From Campylobacterales bacterium (GTDB taxonomy: Bacteria; Campylobacterota; Campylobacteria; Campylobacterales; Sulfurimonadaceae), in contig JAJRQV010000031.1 of assembly GCA_024280035.1 (NCBI GenBank), positions 1 through 51,597 of the forward strand: a DNA stretch of 51,597 bases, written 5' to 3'. Below are positions 4,516 to 13,055 of the stretch, piece after piece. The notes below the pieces were generated by a model. The model saw only the letters and a list, made by a program, of their open reading frames with translations, made no database searches and was not told the DNA's origin. The translations under genes were made by a program, and so were the position numbers. Within the stretch, counting starts at the first letter, position 1, and each line of letters begins with the position of its first letter.

Positions 4516-5478
4516 TTAGTATTTCTGCTTGGCAATAATAAGATAAATAAAAAATGGACCACCAATAAGTGCTGTAACTACACCAATAGGAATCTCCGAT
4601 CCTGTTGAGATAAGACGTGTTAGAGTATCACAGGCTAAAAGAAAAAAACCTCCCATAAAAAAGACAGGAAAAATAAGTGTACTTACTGGTTTTTGATAAA
4701 TTTTTCTTACCATATGAGGAATGATAAGACCAATAAAACCAATAGGCCCTGTTAGGCTTACTAAGACCCCTATTGCTAAGGAACTCACTCCTAAGAATAG
4801 GTATGTTAGTCTTTTTGTATTTACACCCTTTAAGGCAGCTTGTTCATCTGAAATAGATAAGAGTTGTAACTCAAATCGTTTGAGATACAAAAGAGTGAGG
4901 AAAAGGGCTGAAAAAATGGAAATAGTAAGAAGACTCTTATATCCAACTATGGATAAACTTCCCATAGTAAAACGCATAATAGTAGCTGTTTCTGTAAAAG
5001 AACTGAGGTAAAAAATAACCATTAAGGCTGAGGTATAAAAGAAGGAGAGCGCAATGCCTAAAAGCAGAAGAGACTCTTGTTCAGCCTTTTTGAGGTAACG
5101 TGAAAGTACAATTAAAAGTATGACTGTTGAAAAAGCGCCAAGGAAACCAAAAAGAGAAACCGCTGAAAGTCCAAAAACAAGTGTTAACCCCAGTTTAATG
5201 GAGATGCCTGCACCTAAAACAGCACCGCCTGAAACGCCTAGGGTAAAAGGTGTCATTAAAGAGTTTCTAAAAAGGGTCTGAAAAAGTAGCCCTGCTAAAG
5301 CTAAGGTTCCCCCGACTACAAAAGCGAGCAAAATACGAGGTAAACGAAGTTCCAAAAAGATTCTTTGTGAAAGAGAGTTGGCTTCAAAAATGGTATTAAA
5401 ATCAAGACTAACTGTGCCAGCAAAAGGTGACAAAAGAGTGAATATGAAAAGAATAATCCATATATATGTTTTATTCAT
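4516..5478 (-). CDS. btuC: Cobalamin ABC transporter permease, BtuC/FecCD family
   Basis: This highly hydrophobic protein of about 320 residues has 9-10 predicted membrane spans, typical of the FecCD/BtuC permeases that import vitamin B12 or siderophores. Family features include RLPRILLAFVVGGTLALAGL near residue 45, LGVSGGAVLGA, and GPIGFIGLIIPHMVRKI in the cytoplasmic coupling region. An ATG at 5478 is chosen over the upstream TTG at 5490; it overlaps the btuD stop by eight bases. It is the last gene of the operon and is followed by a hairpin. The B12 substrate is inferred from the cob genes upstream; iron-chelate permeases look the same. Confidence 0.85.
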   Translation of the reverse strand: MNKTYIWIILFIFTLLSPFAGTVSLDFNTIFEANSLSQRIFLELRLPRILLAFVVGGTLALAGLLFQTLFRNSLMTPFTLGVSGGAVLGAGISIKLGLTLVFGLSAVSLFGFLGAFSTVILLIVLSRYLKKAEQESLLLLGIALSFFYTSALMVIFYLSSFTETATIMRFTMGSLSIVGYKSLLTISIFSALFLTLLYLKRFELQLLSISDEQAALKGVNTKRLTYLFLGVSSLAIGVLVSLTGPIGFIGLIIPHMVRKIYQKPVSTLIFPVFFMGGFFLLACDTLTRLISTGSEIPIGVVTALIGGPFFIYLIIAKQKY

Positions 5479-6205
5479 AATCAAGCTCAAAAAAACTACT
5501 ATTTTCTTTAAAATTTACTCCATAAGCCTTTGAAAGTTGTTCTATTTTAAAGAAGTTTTTTTCATATAAGGTTGCTTTTTTATCATGAAGAAATAAGACA
5601 GGATCATTAAAATATGAAGCGAGTTGAATATCATGAGTAATTAAAATTGTTATAAAAGAGTTACGAAGTTTTTTTAACTCCTGTACAAAAAGAGTTGTAT
5701 TTTTAGGATCAAGGTTATATGTGGGCTCATCAAAGATTAGTATATTGCTTTTTTGGGCTAAGGCTTGGGCAATAAGAACAAGCTGTTGCTGTCCAGAACT
5801 AAGCTCATGCAGTCTAAAAGAGACTAAGTTAGAAATTGAGAGTTCAGCTAAAATTTCTTTTACAATCTCTTTATCAAGTATACTGTAGTTTTTAAATGAA
5901 GCCTTGTAGGGGTAACGCCCCAAAAGTACAAACTCTTCAACCGTGGTAAACTGTTCAAAACTTTCCATTTTTGAGGGAATATAAGCTATTTTTTTAGCCC
6001 TTTCAATAGCAGGAATAGAAAAAAGTTCATAATTGTCTATTTGAATAGAACCTTCATAAGGTAAGAGACCACAAAGTGCTTTGGCAAGGGTGCTTTTACC
6101 ACTTCCATTTGAACCTAAAATACAAAGATGCTGTTTAATATCAACGTTAATGTTTTTTAAGATCATTGTTTTATCATAAGCAATATAAAGATTAGAAACT
6201 CTCAT
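5471..6205 (-). CDS. btuD: Cobalamin ABC transporter ATP-binding protein
   Basis: This 244-residue ATPase powers the BtuC permease. Walker A is GSNGSGKST (about residues 33-41), the ABC signature is LSSGQQQ (about 134-140) and Walker B is ILIFDEPT (about 154-161). The H-loop His is in ILITHDI. The start ATG overlaps the btuF stop by four bases (ATGA), which implies translational coupling. The C-terminal extension after residue 200 is typical of FecE/BtuD-like subunits. Substrate is inferred from context. Confidence 0.87.
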   Translation of the reverse strand: MRVSNLYIAYDKTMILKNINVDIKQHLCILGSNGSGKSTLAKALCGLLPYEGSIQIDNYELFSIPAIERAKKIAYIPSKMESFEQFTTVEEFVLLGRYPYKASFKNYSILDKEIVKEILAELSISNLVSFRLHELSSGQQQLVLIAQALAQKSNILIFDEPTYNLDPKNTTLFVQELKKLRNSFITILITHDIQLASYFNDPVLFLHDKKATLYEKNFFKIEQLSKAYGVNFKENSSFFELDYE

Positions 6206-7008
6206 AAAGATAGAACCTCACAAATATCTGTAATAGTCTGTGCAACACGATGAGAATGGATAGAAAGATAGTCTTTATTCATTATGTAAATCTTTTTATT
6301 TTTAGCTGCATTTATGGGGATATTGTACCAAAGTTCTTTAGCTTTTTGAAAGTTTACTTGACCATCGGTTGCATGATGATAAAGGAGGATAACCTTATCC
6401 GGATTAGCCTGTATAAGACCTTCATAATGTAAAACAGGTTGGGATAATAACCTAGCTGTATAAGCATTTTGTGCTCCACATGCTTTAATAATATCTTCAT
6501 AAAATATATTATGCCCAGCTACATAAAAACCTCGGTGCATATCTAAAGAGAGCCCATATACGATAAGAACTTTTTCGTGAGTACTTTTTTTCTTAGGAGC
6601 ATTCATAAGGGCTTCTTTTATAGGTCGTAAGAGGGGATTAGGGTCTGCGTGTAAGGCTTTTGCAATTTTAGAAATAGAGTGTTCTATACTGTGTAGAGTA
6701 CTAAACTCTACGGTTAAGGTCTTAATTCCGAGTTTATTGAGCTGAGTAAGTGTTTTTTCATAATGCTGTTGACCTATAACGAGGCTGGGATTAAGTGAAA
6801 ATATTTTTTCTAAAGAGGGGTTTACATAAGCTCCCACCTTAGTGATTTTTTGAACCTCTTTAGGATACGATGCATATTCACTGACACCTACAAGTTCATC
6901 TCCTTTGTTTAAGGCAAAAACAATTTCACTAATGGCTGGAGATAAGGCAATAATACGCTCTTGAGAAATTAGAAAAAGAGGAAAAATAAGTAAGAGCATC
7001 AGACGCAT
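6202..7008 (-). CDS. btuF: Periplasmic cobalamin-binding protein, BtuF-like
   Basis: This solute-binding protein of about 268 residues delivers B12 to BtuCD. The signal sequence MRLMLLLIFPLFLIS precedes RIIALSPAISEIVFAL, the usual beginning of class III (BtuF/FhuD) binding proteins. YPKEVQKITKVGAYVNPSLEKIFSLNPSLVI follows in pieces as the standard first lobe. The start at 7008 is preferred over 7029 because a GGAG box lies seven bases before it and the signal peptide then begins cleanly. It overlaps the cobC stop by ten bases. A possible lipobox is absent, so the protein is probably soluble. Confidence 0.85.
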   Translation of the reverse strand: MRLMLLLIFPLFLISQERIIALSPAISEIVFALNKGDELVGVSEYASYPKEVQKITKVGAYVNPSLEKIFSLNPSLVIGQQHYEKTLTQLNKLGIKTLTVEFSTLHSIEHSISKIAKALHADPNPLLRPIKEALMNAPKKKSTHEKVLIVYGLSLDMHRGFYVAGHNIFYEDIIKACGAQNAYTARLLSQPVLHYEGLIQANPDKVILLYHHATDGQVNFQKAKELWYNIPINAAKNKKIYIMNKDYLSIHSHRVAQTITDICEVLSL

Positions 7009-7571
7009 TTTAAGTCTCCAAATTTCCATGTTTGTGTATCTAAAGTAATATAGTTTGCATAAGCAAAAGGTTCACTAAAGGCTTCTTCTAAGCTAATTTT
7101 ATTTATTAAATGCAGTAAAACACGAATCACACCAGCATGGGTCATTACTAAAATATTTCCAGAAGAACATGCCGGTAAAAAATCTTTAAAAAAAATCTTC
7201 ACACGTTTTATATAAGCAGAATACTCTTCTCCATCAAGTGCTGTAATCCATTGTTCAAAGTTTTCATATGTAAAAGATTCCATTTCAATAATTTCATCAA
7301 AACTTTTTCCCTCATGCTTTCCCCACGATTTTCCTCTTAAGGATTGGGTATAAACAGGCGATAAGTTTCCTAAATCAAAAGGGTCTAAGGTCTCTTTACA
7401 GCGTTGAAGATCAGAGCAAAAAACAGCATCAAAGTACTCTTTTTTAAAGTGCTTAGCTAACTGTTGTGCCTCTTCTTTCCCTTTTTGTGATAAAGAGATA
7501 TTTATATGCCCATTATAACGTTTATGATAAGCCTCCTGAACCTCTGCATGGCGTACTAAGGTAATTAACAT
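6999..7571 (-). CDS. cobC: Alpha-ribazole phosphatase, histidine phosphatase family
   Basis: This 190-residue member of the phosphoglycerate-mutase-like family is predicted to dephosphorylate alpha-ribazole 5'-phosphate or cobalamin 5'-phosphate in nucleotide-loop assembly. The catalytic His is in LVRHAE (residues 5-10; many relatives have RHGE). RYNGHINISLSQKGKEEA follows, with CSDLQRCKET carrying the second Arg and VMTHAGVIRVLL the second His. It sits between cobS and btuF with overlaps on both sides, which supports the pathway role over general phosphoglycerate mutase activity. Confidence 0.83.
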   Translation of the reverse strand: MLITLVRHAEVQEAYHKRYNGHINISLSQKGKEEAQQLAKHFKKEYFDAVFCSDLQRCKETLDPFDLGNLSPVYTQSLRGKSWGKHEGKSFDEIIEMESFTYENFEQWITALDGEEYSAYIKRVKIFFKDFLPACSSGNILVMTHAGVIRVLLHLINKISLEEAFSEPFAYANYITLDTQTWKFGDLKCV

Positions 7572-8290
7572 AAAAGAAGTACCGCATGCAGTAAAATAAG
7601 TTCAGTTACCTCAATCATAAAACCATAAAGGTCTCCTGAAAAACCACCAAAACGTTTAGTAAAGAAAATTTTGAAAAACCATAAAGATAAAAGAGAGATA
7701 AATACTAAGATAAGCCCCTTTGTAAACAGTACGGCACTTAGAAAAACAATAAGAACAGAGATGAAAAGCTGGGATGAGTTAAACTCTTTTTTAGCTAAGC
7801 TACTCATTCCATTTTCTCTAATATAAGGTACAAAGTAGATGGCAAGAACAACATTAAAACGTGCATACATTAAAATAATTGGAAGTGCCCATAAGGCATT
7901 AAGATGCCAAAGAGCAGAAGCTTTTAGAAGAAGAAAAACTCCTGTAAATGTCATTCCCATTGCACCAACATGAGGGTCTTTCATCACTTCAATAGCCCTT
8001 TTCTTAGAGACAAAAAGAGCGTCAATAGCATCAGAAAGACCATCTAAGTGTAAGGCGCCTGTTAAAAGAACCCATAAGGCAAAAAGAATGATATGTAGGT
8101 GTGTTGAGACAAGGTAGGGTTCTAAAAGGTAATTGACACCATAAAGAATAGAACCTAAAATAAAACCAATTAGAGGATAAAACATAACCGCATAACCGTT
8201 AATGCCATCAAAGAACTTGTGGACTTTAAAAAAGGGAAGGGTCGTTAGCATATTCATAGATAAAGAGAATCCTGAAAATATATTTTTCAT
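7565..8290 (-). CDS. cobS: Adenosylcobinamide-GDP ribazoletransferase
   Basis: This 241-residue membrane enzyme joins adenosylcobinamide-GDP to alpha-ribazole (phosphate), the last step of B12 nucleotide-loop assembly. Typical CobS features are the N-terminal NMLTTLPFF segment, LTGALHLDGLSDAIDALF (about residues 77-94, metal-binding acidic cluster), VMKDPHVGAMGMTF, and five to six hydrophobic spans. RFGGFSGDLYGF near the C-terminus matches the conserved G-D segment. It overlaps cobU by four bases and cobC by seven. Confidence 0.92.
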   Translation of the reverse strand: MKNIFSGFSLSMNMLTTLPFFKVHKFFDGINGYAVMFYPLIGFILGSILYGVNYLLEPYLVSTHLHIILFALWVLLTGALHLDGLSDAIDALFVSKKRAIEVMKDPHVGAMGMTFTGVFLLLKASALWHLNALWALPIILMYARFNVVLAIYFVPYIRENGMSSLAKKEFNSSQLFISVLIVFLSAVLFTKGLILVFISLLSLWFFKIFFTKRFGGFSGDLYGFMIEVTELILLHAVLLLC

Positions 8291-8781
8291 TTTATTTTGG
8301 TACTTATCCCAGCAATAACATGAAAAACGGTGTTACAGTGCTGTCCTAAAAGTTGAGAGATTTTACCCGAAATATCTACATATTGACGGGCTAAGGCATT
8401 GTCTGGGATTACTCCTGCACCCACATCGTTTTGTACAAAAATAATATCAATAGGGAGGGCTAAAAGCTTCTGAATATGCTCTTTGATATCTTCATAAACA
8501 AAACCATGATAAAGCATATTATTAATCCACATAGAGATGCACTCAATTAACACAAGCCCTTTTACAGGTTCAAGAGCCTCAACGAGGTTTAGAGGTTCTT
8601 CTTTTGTTAAAAAGTTTTCTGAGCGTTGTAGTTTATGAAGTTCTATGCGCTCTTTCATCTCTTTATCAATAAACTCAGTTGTAGCCAGATAAACAGGAAG
8701 ATTTTTTGAGTGTCTAAGTGCAAAGTTTTCTGCATGCAAAGATTTCCCTGATTTTATACCACCAATGAAGAGTACCTTCAT
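8287..8781 (-). CDS. cobU: Adenosylcobinamide kinase / guanylyltransferase
   Basis: This bifunctional enzyme of about 164 residues phosphorylates adenosylcobinamide and then transfers GMP to it. The P-loop GGIKSGKSLHAE is at residues 6-17. Further CobU marks are YLATTEFIDKEMKERIELH, where the His receives GMP, and VQNDVGAGVIPDN (about 124-136). The ATG at 8781 is preferred over the upstream in-frame start at 8826. From 8781 the protein begins MKVLFIGG, and its ATG overlaps the cobT TGA (ATGA). Confidence 0.92.
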   Translation of the reverse strand: MKVLFIGGIKSGKSLHAENFALRHSKNLPVYLATTEFIDKEMKERIELHKLQRSENFLTKEEPLNLVEALEPVKGLVLIECISMWINNMLYHGFVYEDIKEHIQKLLALPIDIIFVQNDVGAGVIPDNALARQYVDISGKISQLLGQHCNTVFHVIAGISTKIK

Positions 8782-9815
8782 AAAAGAAATCCTTCTATCT
8801 TTTGCGTCAGCTCTTTTTGTGTACAACCTTGGGCAAAAGCATAAGCAAGAGAAGCACCCGCACCAACACCCTCTTTAGCCTCACCCTCATCATAAAGTTT
8901 TAAAGCAGGATGTTTTGAATCTTTAAAACTAAAATCAGCATAATACGCCTTTAGTCTAAAATCGAGTTGTTCTATTAGACCTTGTATATTAGAATTTTTG
9001 TCCTTATGTATCCATGAGGTAGTACACAGATTAATATGTCTATGGTCATGATGAATTCCCTTCCTTCCTGCAATCTTATTAGCAATAAGTAAAACAGCTA
9101 CCATCTGTGTTCCTCCTGCTAAAACGATATTAAACCGTCGTGAGGCTGAGAGGATAAAACCTGCGGTAAACATCAACATATTGTCACTCGTGTGTCCAAG
9201 TTTTTCAAACAGAGACATGTTGTTATTTAGTTTAGATAAAGATTGTTGAATACTCTCTTGTTTAATACTAAAAGGGGATGCTTTAAATGAAGAGGCAAAA
9301 AGATCTTCTGTTGTATAACCCAAGGCGCTTATCGCGGCTTGTGCTGTTGTGGTTCCTCCTGGAGTAGATTCACCAAAAATAAGATAATCTCCTAAGAGTT
9401 TGTAGGTTTTTCCAAACTCAAAACCTTTATCAAAAACAGACTTAGCATCAAAACTCTGAGTATCTGTAATACTGGGGCTAGGTCTTATGTCAAAATCTAT
9501 AAGTTTGCACTCTTGTGGTTTAAGGGTGAGTCCAAGATTAAGGATTTGTAACTGTTTAAATACTGAAAGTTCATGTACAGCTCTTGTGATTAACGCAGGC
9601 GTAGGAACGCCCTTTGGTGTTTCTGCAATTTCACCTAAGGAAAAAACCTTTCCTGTAGAGATAAACTCAGCATCAAGTGTGGGAGTTAAAGGAATCAAGC
9701 CTGGAATCCCTGCTTGTGTAAGCTCAGGAATTTCACAGGTATGCGTCACGCAAGCGGCTAATAAAAAATCAGCATTACCCTTAAGTATAAAGTCATCTTT
9801 GTTTATAGCTTGCAT
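8778..9815 (-). CDS. cobT: Nicotinate-nucleotide--dimethylbenzimidazole phosphoribosyltransferase
   Basis: This 345-residue enzyme activates the lower-ligand base of B12 by making alpha-ribazole 5'-phosphate from nicotinate mononucleotide. The segment LIFGESTPGGTTTAQAAISA at about 145-165 and VLAGGTQMVAVLLIA are characteristic. A Glu in the C-terminal EGEAKEGVGAGASLA segment is the usual catalytic-base region. An AGGA box precedes the ATG. It lies seven bases after btuB and overlaps cobU. No gene for making dimethylbenzimidazole (bluB, bza) is present in the window, so the base is made elsewhere or imported. Confidence 0.92.
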   Translation of the reverse strand: MQAINKDDFILKGNADFLLAACVTHTCEIPELTQAGIPGLIPLTPTLDAEFISTGKVFSLGEIAETPKGVPTPALITRAVHELSVFKQLQILNLGLTLKPQECKLIDFDIRPSPSITDTQSFDAKSVFDKGFEFGKTYKLLGDYLIFGESTPGGTTTAQAAISALGYTTEDLFASSFKASPFSIKQESIQQSLSKLNNNMSLFEKLGHTSDNMLMFTAGFILSASRRFNIVLAGGTQMVAVLLIANKIAGRKGIHHDHRHINLCTTSWIHKDKNSNIQGLIEQLDFRLKAYYADFSFKDSKHPALKLYDEGEAKEGVGAGASLAYAFAQGCTQKELTQKIEGFLL

Positions 9816-9822
9816 TGTTTTC

Positions 9823-11766
9823 CTAAAATTTAAGTTTTACCCCTGTTAAGAACGTTGTTCTAAAGTTTGTAGGATAAATAGCATCATCACTTACCCATAA
9901 ACCATTGGAATGGTCAAACAGATTATTTAACTTAGCAAAAACTTCATAAGTCTTTTTTGCATAAGTGATAGAAATATCCGTAGTATAATACTTTTCTTGT
10001 CTTTGGTCAAAGTTATTTTGGGTGTCATTTAAGGCAAAGGCTTCAGAACGGTAGGTTTGAACAAGGGCTAGGGTTGTATATTCATTAGCTTGGTAATTAA
10101 GTGTTGCTTTAGCACTATGTTTTGGTACACCAGGAAGGGTGTTTCCTCCAAGGTCAACACCATTTTCAACTTCTTTATCAATTTTAGCACGTACATAAGT
10201 ATAGGTTAGGGCTAAATTCCATTTTTCAGTTATATTAAGTCTGTCATAGAGTTCAACTCCGTATTTATTTGACTCATCAATATTCGTATTTTTACTTGCA
10301 GGATCAAACGAACCTCCTGGTCCTGTATAAAAATAAAATTCATTTTTTAAATCAGAATAAAATACAGAAGCTTTAAACTTATTGTTAATGGTGAAGTTGT
10401 TGTACCCTAAAGTATAGGTATCTGCTTTCATCGGTTCAAGAAAGTTTTTAAAGACGCCTCCTGTGGGAAAAACATAAACTAAAAGTCTGTCAATACTTGG
10501 GGCTTGGTAAGAACGTGCATAACTAAAAAAGATTGAGTTCTCTTTGTTGATTTTGTAGTTGTAACTTAATTCTGCACCATGCAGGGTGTAGTCTTTTGTA
10601 TTGTCCGTTGTTGTTTGGTCTTGCTTGTAAAAGACACGTTCATAACGGTATCCTGCTTTGAGTGTGTGTTGTTCAAATTTGTATTGTGCTAGCATATATC
10701 CAGCATAATTATTTTTATCAATATCTCCACCATATCCATCTCTATTTCCACGAAAACCTTCAAAACCGGTAATTAAATGAAAATTATCTGTACCATAATT
10801 GATGGATGTTGAAAAATTGTCATAATTATAATTTGAGGTAGAAGGGAAACTTCCTAAAAACTCTGATTTCTTTTTTTCGTTAGAATAATCCGCTTGTATG
10901 TTTAAAGTATTTGTAATATCATAAGTTAAACCGGTACTAAAAGTAGTGGTTTTATACTTCTGATGGGTATAACCAAAGTTTGTTGCTCCAGGCTGAGAAG
11001 GATCAGCTCTGTACTCATCTAGGGTTAAATAACTTCCATAAAAAGAGTCAATATTTGTTTTTGCCACACCAAATCGAACTTCTAAATCATCACGAGGAGT
11101 AAGGGCAAGATTAAAGGCAACATTTCCCATCTTCTGTTCATCTGTTTTATTATTATTATCAATTCTACGTGTACCGTCTGTTTTAATAAAATCAGCTGCT
11201 AAAGATAATGATAATAGATCACTTGAATGTCCTAAGTATAGGTTAATATTAGAGCTACTTTGACTTCCTAAAGCCAGTGAAATTTCTTTATTATTACTGT
11301 TTTTAGTGATAATATTAATGACACCAGCATTTGCTCCATCCCCATTTTGTACAATACCACTGCCTTTTAAAATCTCTAATCTCTCAATACTACTAGGGGG
11401 AATAGAAGCAAGAAGTTGAGGCACATTGTCAATATTATTGAGTTTGCGTCCATTTAGTCGTATTACAATATTTTCATTTCCATTTTCAATTCCATATCCA
11501 CGCATATCTAAAAGTGGAGTAAAAGGGTTTCCAAATGATGGCATAGTAGTTAATGAAGTGTTTTTTTGGATAAACTCAGACAGTGTTTGAACATGAGCAT
11601 TATTAATATCTTCGCTTGTGTAAATCTCTACTGCATCAGGTGAATTTAACTCATTATTTTGCAAGGGAGTGGATTCTATTGTTAAGGGTTCAAGCTCAAT
11701 AACTTGAGCATTTAAGTTACTTAAAAGTAGTGTACTTAAAAGTGAAAGTGTGACTGTTTTTTTCAT
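9823..11766 (-). CDS. btuB: TonB-dependent outer-membrane receptor, BtuB-like
   Basis: This 647-residue receptor has a signal peptide (MKKTVTLSLLSTLLLSNLNA). A plug domain follows (about residues 35-155: SEFIQKN, LDMRGYGIENGNENIVIRLN, ERLEILKGSGIVQNGDGANAGVINII). The rest is a 22-strand barrel ending FLTGVKLKF with the terminal Phe. A TonB box is probably within the first residues after cleavage (VIELEPLTIES). A good AAAGGA box precedes the ATG, 17 bases after orf117. Position at the head of the cob/btu genes makes cobalamin or cobinamide the likely substrate. This is inference, since TonB receptors for iron chelates look alike. Confidence 0.87.
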   Translation of the reverse strand: MKKTVTLSLLSTLLLSNLNAQVIELEPLTIESTPLQNNELNSPDAVEIYTSEDINNAHVQTLSEFIQKNTSLTTMPSFGNPFTPLLDMRGYGIENGNENIVIRLNGRKLNNIDNVPQLLASIPPSSIERLEILKGSGIVQNGDGANAGVINIITKNSNNKEISLALGSQSSSNINLYLGHSSDLLSLSLAADFIKTDGTRRIDNNNKTDEQKMGNVAFNLALTPRDDLEVRFGVAKTNIDSFYGSYLTLDEYRADPSQPGATNFGYTHQKYKTTTFSTGLTYDITNTLNIQADYSNEKKKSEFLGSFPSTSNYNYDNFSTSINYGTDNFHLITGFEGFRGNRDGYGGDIDKNNYAGYMLAQYKFEQHTLKAGYRYERVFYKQDQTTTDNTKDYTLHGAELSYNYKINKENSIFFSYARSYQAPSIDRLLVYVFPTGGVFKNFLEPMKADTYTLGYNNFTINNKFKASVFYSDLKNEFYFYTGPGGSFDPASKNTNIDESNKYGVELYDRLNITEKWNLALTYTYVRAKIDKEVENGVDLGGNTLPGVPKHSAKATLNYQANEYTTLALVQTYRSEAFALNDTQNNFDQRQEKYYTTDISITYAKKTYEVFAKLNNLFDHSNGLWVSDDAIYPTNFRTTFLTGVKLKF

Positions 11767-11783
11767 TTTGTTTTTCCTTTGAA

Positions 11784-12137
11784 TTATGTTTTAGTATGAG
11801 GTGTAAAGCTTAAGGGTGGGGCTATGCCCGAATGGGTTTTATGGTAGATAAAAAAAGTGAGAGGATGAAATTTAAAATATTGTTTGAGGGTATACAGACG
11901 TTGTTTAAAGTAGCAGTTGCAGTGAGATAAACTGCTTGTTTCATTAAGAGAGCTCTCTTGTATAAGGATATCGAGTTCTTCACGTGGGTCTTGTTCTTCA
12001 TCATTGTCTTCAAAAGAGATATTACGAGAAGAGTGGGTTAAGGAGGTGCACAGTGAATGTAATACACTATCAGATGAGTAAGCACAAATTGCTGACAATG
12101 AAAAGTAGTTCTTAGCAAAACCCTTTGGTACACTCAT
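11784..12137 (-). CDS. Small His/Cys-rich protein leading the B12 operon
   Basis: I do not recognise this 117-residue protein. It begins MSVPKGFAKNYFSLSAICAY, has no clear signal peptide and carries an acidic patch (FEDNDEEQDPREELD). Its Cys and His residues are concentrated in LHSLCTSLTHSS and SHCNCYFKQ, with more His in the C-terminal third (KFHPLTFFIYHKTHSG). The gene looks real: GGGGGAAATTAA precedes the ATG, and a TTGACA/TATACT promoter sits directly upstream. It is the first gene of the cobalamin operon, 17 bases before btuB. A role in metal or corrinoid handling is possible but only contextual. Confidence 0.6.
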   Translation of the reverse strand: MSVPKGFAKNYFSLSAICAYSSDSVLHSLCTSLTHSSRNISFEDNDEEQDPREELDILIQESSLNETSSLSHCNCYFKQRLYTLKQYFKFHPLTFFIYHKTHSGIAPPLSFTPHTKT

Positions 12138-12162
12138 TTAATTTCCCCCAATTAATAAGCGA

Positions 12163-12192
12163 AGTATAGTCAAATGCCAGTAAGATTGTCAA
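12163..12192 (-). promoter_or_regulatory. Sigma70-type promoter of the B12 operon
   Basis: On the minus strand TTGACA (12192-12187) and TATACT (12168-12163) are 18 bases apart. Initiation would give a leader of only about 20 bases before the orf117 ATG at 12137. No B12-box-like sequence is seen, and there is no room for a cobalamin riboswitch in such a leader. Confidence 0.7.
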
Positions 12193-12264: not shown

Positions 12265-12621
12265 ATGATATTTGGTGATTTATTCTCATTTTCAAGAGTG
12301 AAGTGGCAAGAAGAGATTGTCCCTTTTCCGACTGAACTTAAAAATATACAGTTAATAAAAATTTTACATATGCAAAGTAATAAATGTGTAGTCTTCTCTA
12401 AACAAGATGTAGAAAAATTTTTAGCTTTTATGAAAACAGGGTATTGCAATAAAATAATGAAAGGCATGACCCGTTACCAAATTAAGATAGAACATTAAGA
12501 TGGAAATTCTGATTATTATATTGATGGTGAGTCCGTTCGTCCAAAAAAATCTGATCTTGTCCAAGCTGCATTTACACCTAAAAATAGAGGATTTGAGGTC
12601 TTTTTACACTCTTTCTTTTAG
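12265..12621 (+). pseudogene. Small hypothetical gene interrupted by TAA
   Basis: An ORF starting with ATG at 12265 runs 77 codons to TAA at 12496-12498, then stays open in the same frame for 40 more codons to TAG at 12619. The first part reads like a compact globular protein (MIFGDLFSFSRVKWQEEIVPF, VFSKQDVEKFLAFMKTG). The second part continues with DGNSDYYIDGES and AAFTPKNRGFEVFLH. Continuity of frame and composition suggests one 118-residue protein split by a nonsense codon. The function is not recognised. Its end overlaps the convergent Cys-rich gene by four bases. Confidence 0.5.
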
Positions 12622-13055
12622 TCTTCTTCGCTACTATCACACGCTTTCATAATCTCTTTCCAATTAGTAGAAAAATGTTTTTTTATATAATCCTCTTTAT
12701 GAGGAATTTGACATCTGGAACAGTCTTGATGAACACTGTTTTCATGCTCAAAAATAGCACCATCTTTAGAGGTTATGGAACAGTTTGAGTGAATAAGTTT
12801 TTTATCTATGGCTTTGGGATGGGAAGTAAAGCGGAAGTTAGGGCAGGCACAGAGATAACAGTTTAACACTGTCATCTCATGGCATTTTGTATTCGTTTTA
12901 TAGAGTTCACAAAAATTAGGTTCGTTAAGAACCATATTTTCAAAACGAAAATACTTAATGATTTCTGCTTGGTTTAGCCCTTGTTTAAGAAGTCTTTGGC
13001 TGAGTTGGTGATGCTTATCACCAAAGTCTTTAAACCAAGAAGCATAAGTTTGCAA
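12618..13055 (-). CDS. Cys-rich protein, possible PF04071-like metal-binding domain
   Basis: This protein of about 145 residues contains eight or more Cys arranged as CELYKTNTKC, NCYLCACPNFRF, SNCSI and DCSRCQIPH. The CxxCxCP core recalls the cysteine-rich small domain (PF04071), which in some archaea and bacteria occurs near cobalamin genes. That link is tentative. There is no signal peptide, so a cytoplasmic zinc or iron-sulfur site is likely. The start appears to be TTG at 13055, directly after the TAG of the upstream gene and in the same frame. No ATG or good ribosome binding site is available nearby. Confidence 0.55.
   Translation of the reverse strand: MQTYASWFKDFGDKHHQLSQRLLKQGLNQAEIIKYFRFENMVLNEPNFCELYKTNTKCHEMTVLNCYLCACPNFRFTSHPKAIDKKLIHSNCSITSKDGAIFEHENSVHQDCSRCQIPHKEDYIKKHFSTNWKEIMKACDSSEED

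Follow-up and report, generated by a model that had tools for sequence, protein, structure and literature searches.

Contig JAJRQV010000031.1 of a Campylobacterales bacterium from the Sulfurimonadaceae, 51,597 nt long and referred to here as the window, carries an operon of vitamin B12 (cobalamin) genes headed by orf117, a short open reading frame (ORF). We analyzed this ORF and its relatives by computational means. Judged by sequence, orf117 belongs to an unnamed family of short leader peptides that is widespread in Campylobacterota, and we consider it probable that it serves as an arrest-peptide-like leader, or upstream ORF (uORF), that controls the B12/methionine regulon of this phylum in cis.

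The 117-residue product contains 4 Cys and 7 His and has no significant match in Pfam or NCBIfam; a hit to DUF7843 (E=0.007) was below cut-off and was set aside. Relatives occur in 151 of 200 genomes of the window's taxonomic family, and a profile search of a phylum-wide sample recovered the family in 138 of 298 Campylobacterota genomes from about a dozen families. Leaders fall into two length classes, ~110 and ~50 residues, which share an N-terminal module ([KR]GFGKNYF[ST]LxAIxA; the N-module), an acidic stretch and a Pro-Pro pair near the stop codon. Long leaders add a KPCHCNC[FY][FY] motif. Cys and His are all but absent from the ~50-residue leaders, which nevertheless retain the N-module and Pro-Pro. 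The modules that recur are thus GFxxxYFxLxAI at the N-terminus and Pro-Pro, often with CHCNC, at the C-terminus (the C-module); in other families, GFxxxYFxLxAI forms the N-terminus of BtuB itself. Pro-Pro lies mostly in the context [GASIV][IVT][SHA]PP (119 leaders). His or Ser precedes it in nearly all cases, with His in the metE leaders listed and Ser or Ala in the btuB ones. The tail beyond it varies from 0 to 59 residues, is unconserved, and carries repeat insertions in some loci.

A GTDB scan with the N-module as pattern, Pro-Pro not being included, retained 80 loci with Campylobacterota-type titles or from untitled bacteria. Three run off their contig and have no readable context. In all 77 others, the gene directly 3′ of the leader, or fused to it, belongs to the classical B12 regulon of B12 transport, B12 assembly, cobalt transport and metE. 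Of these loci, 35 have metE in this position, 40 have a TonB receptor, btuB-type or otherwise (5 of them fused in frame with the leader), and 2 have an OprD-like porin with CbiM. CbiM in the porin loci was recognized by PF01891, BtuB was named from context in many loci, and loci L070 and L113 were reassigned to target classes from an automated 'none' class. Behind the TonB receptor there are often btuF, btuC, btuD and cob genes. In the phylum sample, metE was next in 22 of 22 cases of C-module-only leaders, while 41 of 54 N-module-only matches stood at the start of frames of 620-706 residues; the five such frames examined are TonB receptors, after which the same small membrane gene follows. 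The window's own genome has one leader copy at btuB and a second directly before metE, whose product scores over the TIGR01371 cut-off. The presence of a separate copy at each target favors action in cis. A first-pass annotation of this DNA had named homologues without linkage to B12 genes as a refutation of its view; the linkage in 77 of 77 readable loci goes the other way.

Two neighboring features were seen along the way. A ~186-residue membrane protein without a Pfam match is encoded directly after BtuB in several families (L046:5386-5946; L149-L152, L155) and possibly takes part in B12 uptake. At L048:7332-10576, the two genes after a short leader encode a chemoreceptor and an OprD-like porin, in that order; this locus possibly lies within the same regulon.

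Codon usage indicates that selection acts on the translated peptide, not on the RNA. The residues G, F, Y, F, P and P are invariant in 100 of 100 aligned leaders, although for the N-terminal ones this is in part a product of the scan, which used the N-module pattern. At these six residues synonymous codons are used at about background rates, with all four proline codons found at both positions of Pro-Pro. Some codon bias (AAC) was seen at the Asn columns. The RNA of the window leader folds no better than shuffled sequences (z = +0.31).

The position of Pro-Pro appears to be tied to the downstream start. In 50 nonredundant loci, the next start codon never comes nearer to Pro-Pro than 46 nt (in the window, 47 nt separate the end of Pro-Pro from the btuB ATG), while stop-to-start distances go down to -14 nt. 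Permuting tail and gap lengths gave an expectation of 9.3 loci below 45 nt, and zero such loci in 0 of 20000 permutations. When only homology was used to anchor the starts, 56 metE loci again had a minimum of 46 nt. A correlation between Pro-Pro-to-stop and stop-to-start lengths in the subset ≤80 nt was discarded because the cut itself induces it; the permutation on all loci was used instead. Complementarity to the downstream Shine-Dalgarno sequence (SD) is highest in the 20 nt from Pro-Pro onward in the 50 nonredundant leaders (p=1e-6 against other leader windows, 0.001 against shuffles, 0.0016 against SDs of other loci). From about -150 to +30 nt around Pro-Pro there is a bubble of C over G, with C at 0.26-0.32 and G at 0.07-0.18, compared with 0.20/0.21 in downstream genes.

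These features suggest a mechanism in which both the stalling at Pro-Pro and the identity of the sensed ligand are inferred. When B12 (or methionine) is scarce, the ribosome would stall at Pro-Pro, where it would cover the anti-SD and keep Rho off the C-rich leader, leaving the downstream gene on. When there is enough B12, the nascent chain would receive an input, through the N-module and the CHCNC module where present, that frees the stall; the ribosome would depart and the downstream gene would be off. The leader would then hold the role taken elsewhere by the cobalamin riboswitch. Known arrest uORFs have a conserved peptide upstream of a regulated gene and a conserved C-terminal proline motif, and both are found here; that the arrest site leaves room for initiation with the SD unmasked is indicated by positional evidence. 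The opposite model, in which the stall occludes the SD and turns the gene off, is disfavored because no leader brings Pro-Pro nearer than 45 nt to the start.

Several observations weigh against an arrest-peptide leader of this kind. Plain Pro-Pro might be relieved by elongation factor P, and the HPP, SPP and APP contexts differ from the tested RAPP and RGPP motifs; none of the 119 leaders has RAPP, RGPP or RAGP. When only metE leaders are considered, the spacing test gives a modest result (P=0.02, 20 nonredundant loci), and SD complementarity exceeds that of shuffles only weakly (p=0.04-0.08). The anti-SD signal holds as an average over loci, and pairing in the window is only partial. One leader (L125) has the N-module and lacks Pro-Pro. 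L063 and L082 join leader and btuB in one frame with Pro-Pro kept, and ribosomes passing Pro-Pro would therefore yield an N-extended receptor. Finally, some genomes that lack both MetH and any PF02310 protein have a C-module-only leader before metE, and there this module cannot be a sensor of B12.

Riboswitch control of btuB and metE by B12 is textbook knowledge, and in other bacteria RF00174 riboswitches are found at btuB, cob genes, cobalt transport genes and metE. At the window's operon there is neither room for such an element nor a trace of one, as had been claimed from the sequence. The promoter position leaves a 5′ untranslated region (5′ UTR) of ~20 nt before orf117, and -10-like boxes in relatives concentrate 30-45 nt upstream of the leader start. 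Rfam found no riboswitch in the window at the gathering threshold; an rli37 match around the leader at a relaxed threshold was a chance match only. RF00174 had matches in 0 of 101 genomes of the window's taxonomic family and in 8 of 14 genomes used as a positive control. Our literature search found no paper on cobalamin riboswitches in Epsilonproteobacteria. The likely regulator of the operon is orf117 and not an RNA aptamer; regulation by orf117 had been one of the options raised in the first-pass annotation.

What the leader senses can be approached from its modules. All genomes with the N-module have MetH except G387, whose copy is degenerate (LRGFDKRYFMLLPTL, versus LRGFGKNYFTLSSIL in its relative G407). 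The C-module-only leaders found before metE without MetH or PF02310 imply that the C-module must serve another input or plain arrest. We favor B12 status as the input to the N-module. A stronger version, in which the nascent leader senses cobalamin directly through GFxxxYFxLxAI and so replaces the cobalamin riboswitch in Campylobacterota, is doubtful; if true, it would to our knowledge be the first case of a vitamin cofactor sensed by an arrest peptide.

Other readings keep the leader and change one of its parts. The effector could be Rho-dependent attenuation, as in CruR (PMC9426467), instead of SD sequestration: a stalled ribosome would shield a C-rich Rho utilization (rut) site that its release exposes. 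The strong C>G bubble up to Pro-Pro makes this a live alternative or addition, and no intrinsic terminator was found between orf117 and btuB on the - strand. However, attenuation needs neither the complementarity at Pro-Pro nor the 45-nt floor to the start codon, and as a replacement for sequestration it is tentative at best; the two can coexist. A somewhat better chance, still short of an even one, belongs to a leader whose input is not cobalamin but methionine, S-adenosylmethionine, homocysteine or a metal (Co, Cu, Zn). This would suit the C-module-only leaders of genomes without MetH or PF02310, the likeness of CHCNC to the copper-binding Cys motifs of CruR and CutF, and the fact that MetE is a zinc enzyme. 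It is harder to reconcile with the short btuB leaders, which retain N-module and Pro-Pro with essentially no Cys or His, with the near-restriction of the N-module to B12-using genomes, one degenerate copy excepted, and with btuB and cbiM targets, which indicate corrinoid or cobalt.

The remaining readings give up the leader function altogether. The first-pass annotation had regarded orf117 as a His/Cys-rich protein that might bind metal or corrinoid, and a stand-alone chaperone, merely co-transcribed, would fit that composition and a 29-residue helix predicted with fair confidence. The invariant residues, however, are G, F, Y, F and Pro-Pro, the tail is free, and Pro-Pro is the sole module common to all members; the idea cannot rest on Cys and His because the short btuB leaders have hardly any. 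The AlphaFold model (36-sequence alignment) is poor, with a mean predicted local distance difference test score (pLDDT) of 66 and a predicted template modeling score (pTM) of 0.32, and each target has its own copy at a spacing tied to the downstream start. A stand-alone protein is thus improbable, and metal or corrinoid binding can survive only as an input to the nascent chain. An undescribed riboswitch overlapping the ORF, with the peptide incidental, might be argued from the leader position and the AAC bias, but free wobble bases at invariant codons, the unremarkable fold and the silence of Rfam make it very improbable. Least credible of all is a ribosomally synthesized and post-translationally modified peptide (RiPP) or metallophore precursor imported by the TonB receptor: a small Cys-containing ORF does adjoin such a receptor, but the operon has no modifying enzymes, and members of the family also stand before metE, whose product has no part in uptake.

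Features of the operon are collected below. All nine ORFs proposed for it lie on the - strand, from 12137 down to 4516, with neighbors overlapping or ≤20 nt apart, and the promoter read upstream of them holds up. The eight B12 gene assignments are backed by Pfam and NCBIfam, with the BtuB label taken from context because its TIGR01779 score is far under the cut-off (71 bits versus 600).

Features of the orf117 operon (window positions)
Feature	Positions	Strand	Basis or remark
Promoter TTGACA-N18-TATACT	12163..12192	-	Matches consensus at 11/12 positions
orf117, proposed arrest-peptide leader (uORF)	11784..12137	-	Family spread, peptide-level conservation
N-module of orf117, residues 4-19 (PKGFAKNYFSLSAICA)	12081..12128	-	GF..YF invariant across family
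HCNC motif, residues 72-75, part of C-module	11913..11924	-	CHCNC in relatives; missing from ~50-aa members
Pro107-Pro108 codons CCACCC, context SGIAPP, proposed arrest site	11814..11819	-	PP in 100/100 aligned leaders
20-nt segment at/after Pro-Pro, proposed anti-Shine-Dalgarno	11800..11819	-	Complementarity peak, 50 nonredundant leaders
btuB Shine-Dalgarno AAAGGA	11775..11780	-	Sequence
btuB-type TonB-dependent receptor	9823..11766	-	PF00593, PF07715; TIGR01779 below cut-off
CobT-type nicotinate mononucleotide-dependent phosphoribosyltransferase	8778..9815	-	NF003372 over cut-off; TIGR00303 just below
cobU (kinase/guanylyltransferase)	8287..8781	-	PF02283
cobS	7565..8290	-	PF02654
cobC-type alpha-ribazole phosphatase	6999..7571	-	PF00300; TIGR03162 below cut-off
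btuF-type periplasmic binding protein	6202..7029	-	PF01497; NF002894 below cut-off
btuD-type ATPase	5471..6205	-	PF00005
btuC-type permease	4516..5490	-	PF01032; NF003001 is best NCBIfam match

Corrin-ring genes are absent from this locus, as the first-pass annotation had noted, but its conclusion that B12 is only salvaged does not extend to the genome. Contig C17 (118000-136000; L161) carries a corrin-ring cluster of cbiC, cbiD, cbiE/T, cbiF, cbiG, cbiH and cbiL, and the organism is therefore not a pure salvager. Searches for CbiL in three genomes of the same genus gave weak matches or none. In metH (17319-13822, - strand), which adjoins the operon, an in-frame TAA at 17247-17245 (about codon 25) may be a genuine nonsense codon or an assembly error. 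A small Cys-rich protein of 145 residues is encoded at 12618-13055 on the - strand, with a weak match to PF04071 below cut-off; its relatives recur near btuB-type loci (L023, L025, L028, L036, L042, L046-L049, L052, L057-L059).

A leader at btuB and metE offers a possible answer to how the B12 regulon is controlled in the sampled Campylobacterota family that lacks the riboswitch, and would add vitamin and methionine metabolism to protein export and copper as fields regulated by arrest peptides. Its modular build, with the N-module accompanying B12 use and the C-module accompanying metE, could show how nascent peptides gain new inputs, and the leader offers a simple testable system. Our literature search found no paper linking an arrest peptide to cobalamin, and the only paper it returned on B12 leaders or uORFs concerned Mycobacterium riboswitches. 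None of the 119 leaders has RAPP, RGPP or RAGP, and surveys limited to those motifs (PMC12992588) would therefore miss the family.

With RF00174, the leader shares its target set and differs in kind, the riboswitch being an RNA aptamer that is absent here. Among peptide systems, CruR of Bordetella pertussis (DUF2946; PMC9426467) is likewise a small uORF with a Cys motif, a short 5′ UTR and a C>G bubble that heads a TonB-receptor operon; its C-terminal Pro-Pro motif is required for regulation, and its stall turns the downstream gene on. Arrest in CruR has been demonstrated (PMC12992588). CruR differs in its copper regulon, its RAPP motif and its 162-nt intergenic region, and membership of the orf117 family in DUF2946 (PF11162) was rejected, with matches in 0 of 36 members and 0 of 9 genomes over cut-off. 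CutF of Rhodobacter capsulatus (also DUF2946; PMC9973294) is a uORF with a signal peptide, a Cys motif, a proline-rich end and an RNA structure masking the next SD. It serves copper and cutO, has a cleavable Sec signal where the orf117 family has only a signal-like N-module, and uses an intergenic stem-loop where our complementarity starts at Pro-Pro; the text of that survey of CutF-like proteins makes no mention of Campylobacter, vitamins or cobalamin. SecM, ApcA, ApdA and ApdP (PMC10951233, PMC10987492) also have a C-terminal arrest motif ending in Pro, and in SecM the arrested ribosome frees the downstream SD, so that the stall is an ON state (PMC10987492); these peptides monitor protein export and use the motifs RAGP, RAPP and RAPG. 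By analogy with SecM, CruR and CutF, to which it is unrelated by sequence, the orf117 family probably works in the same way.

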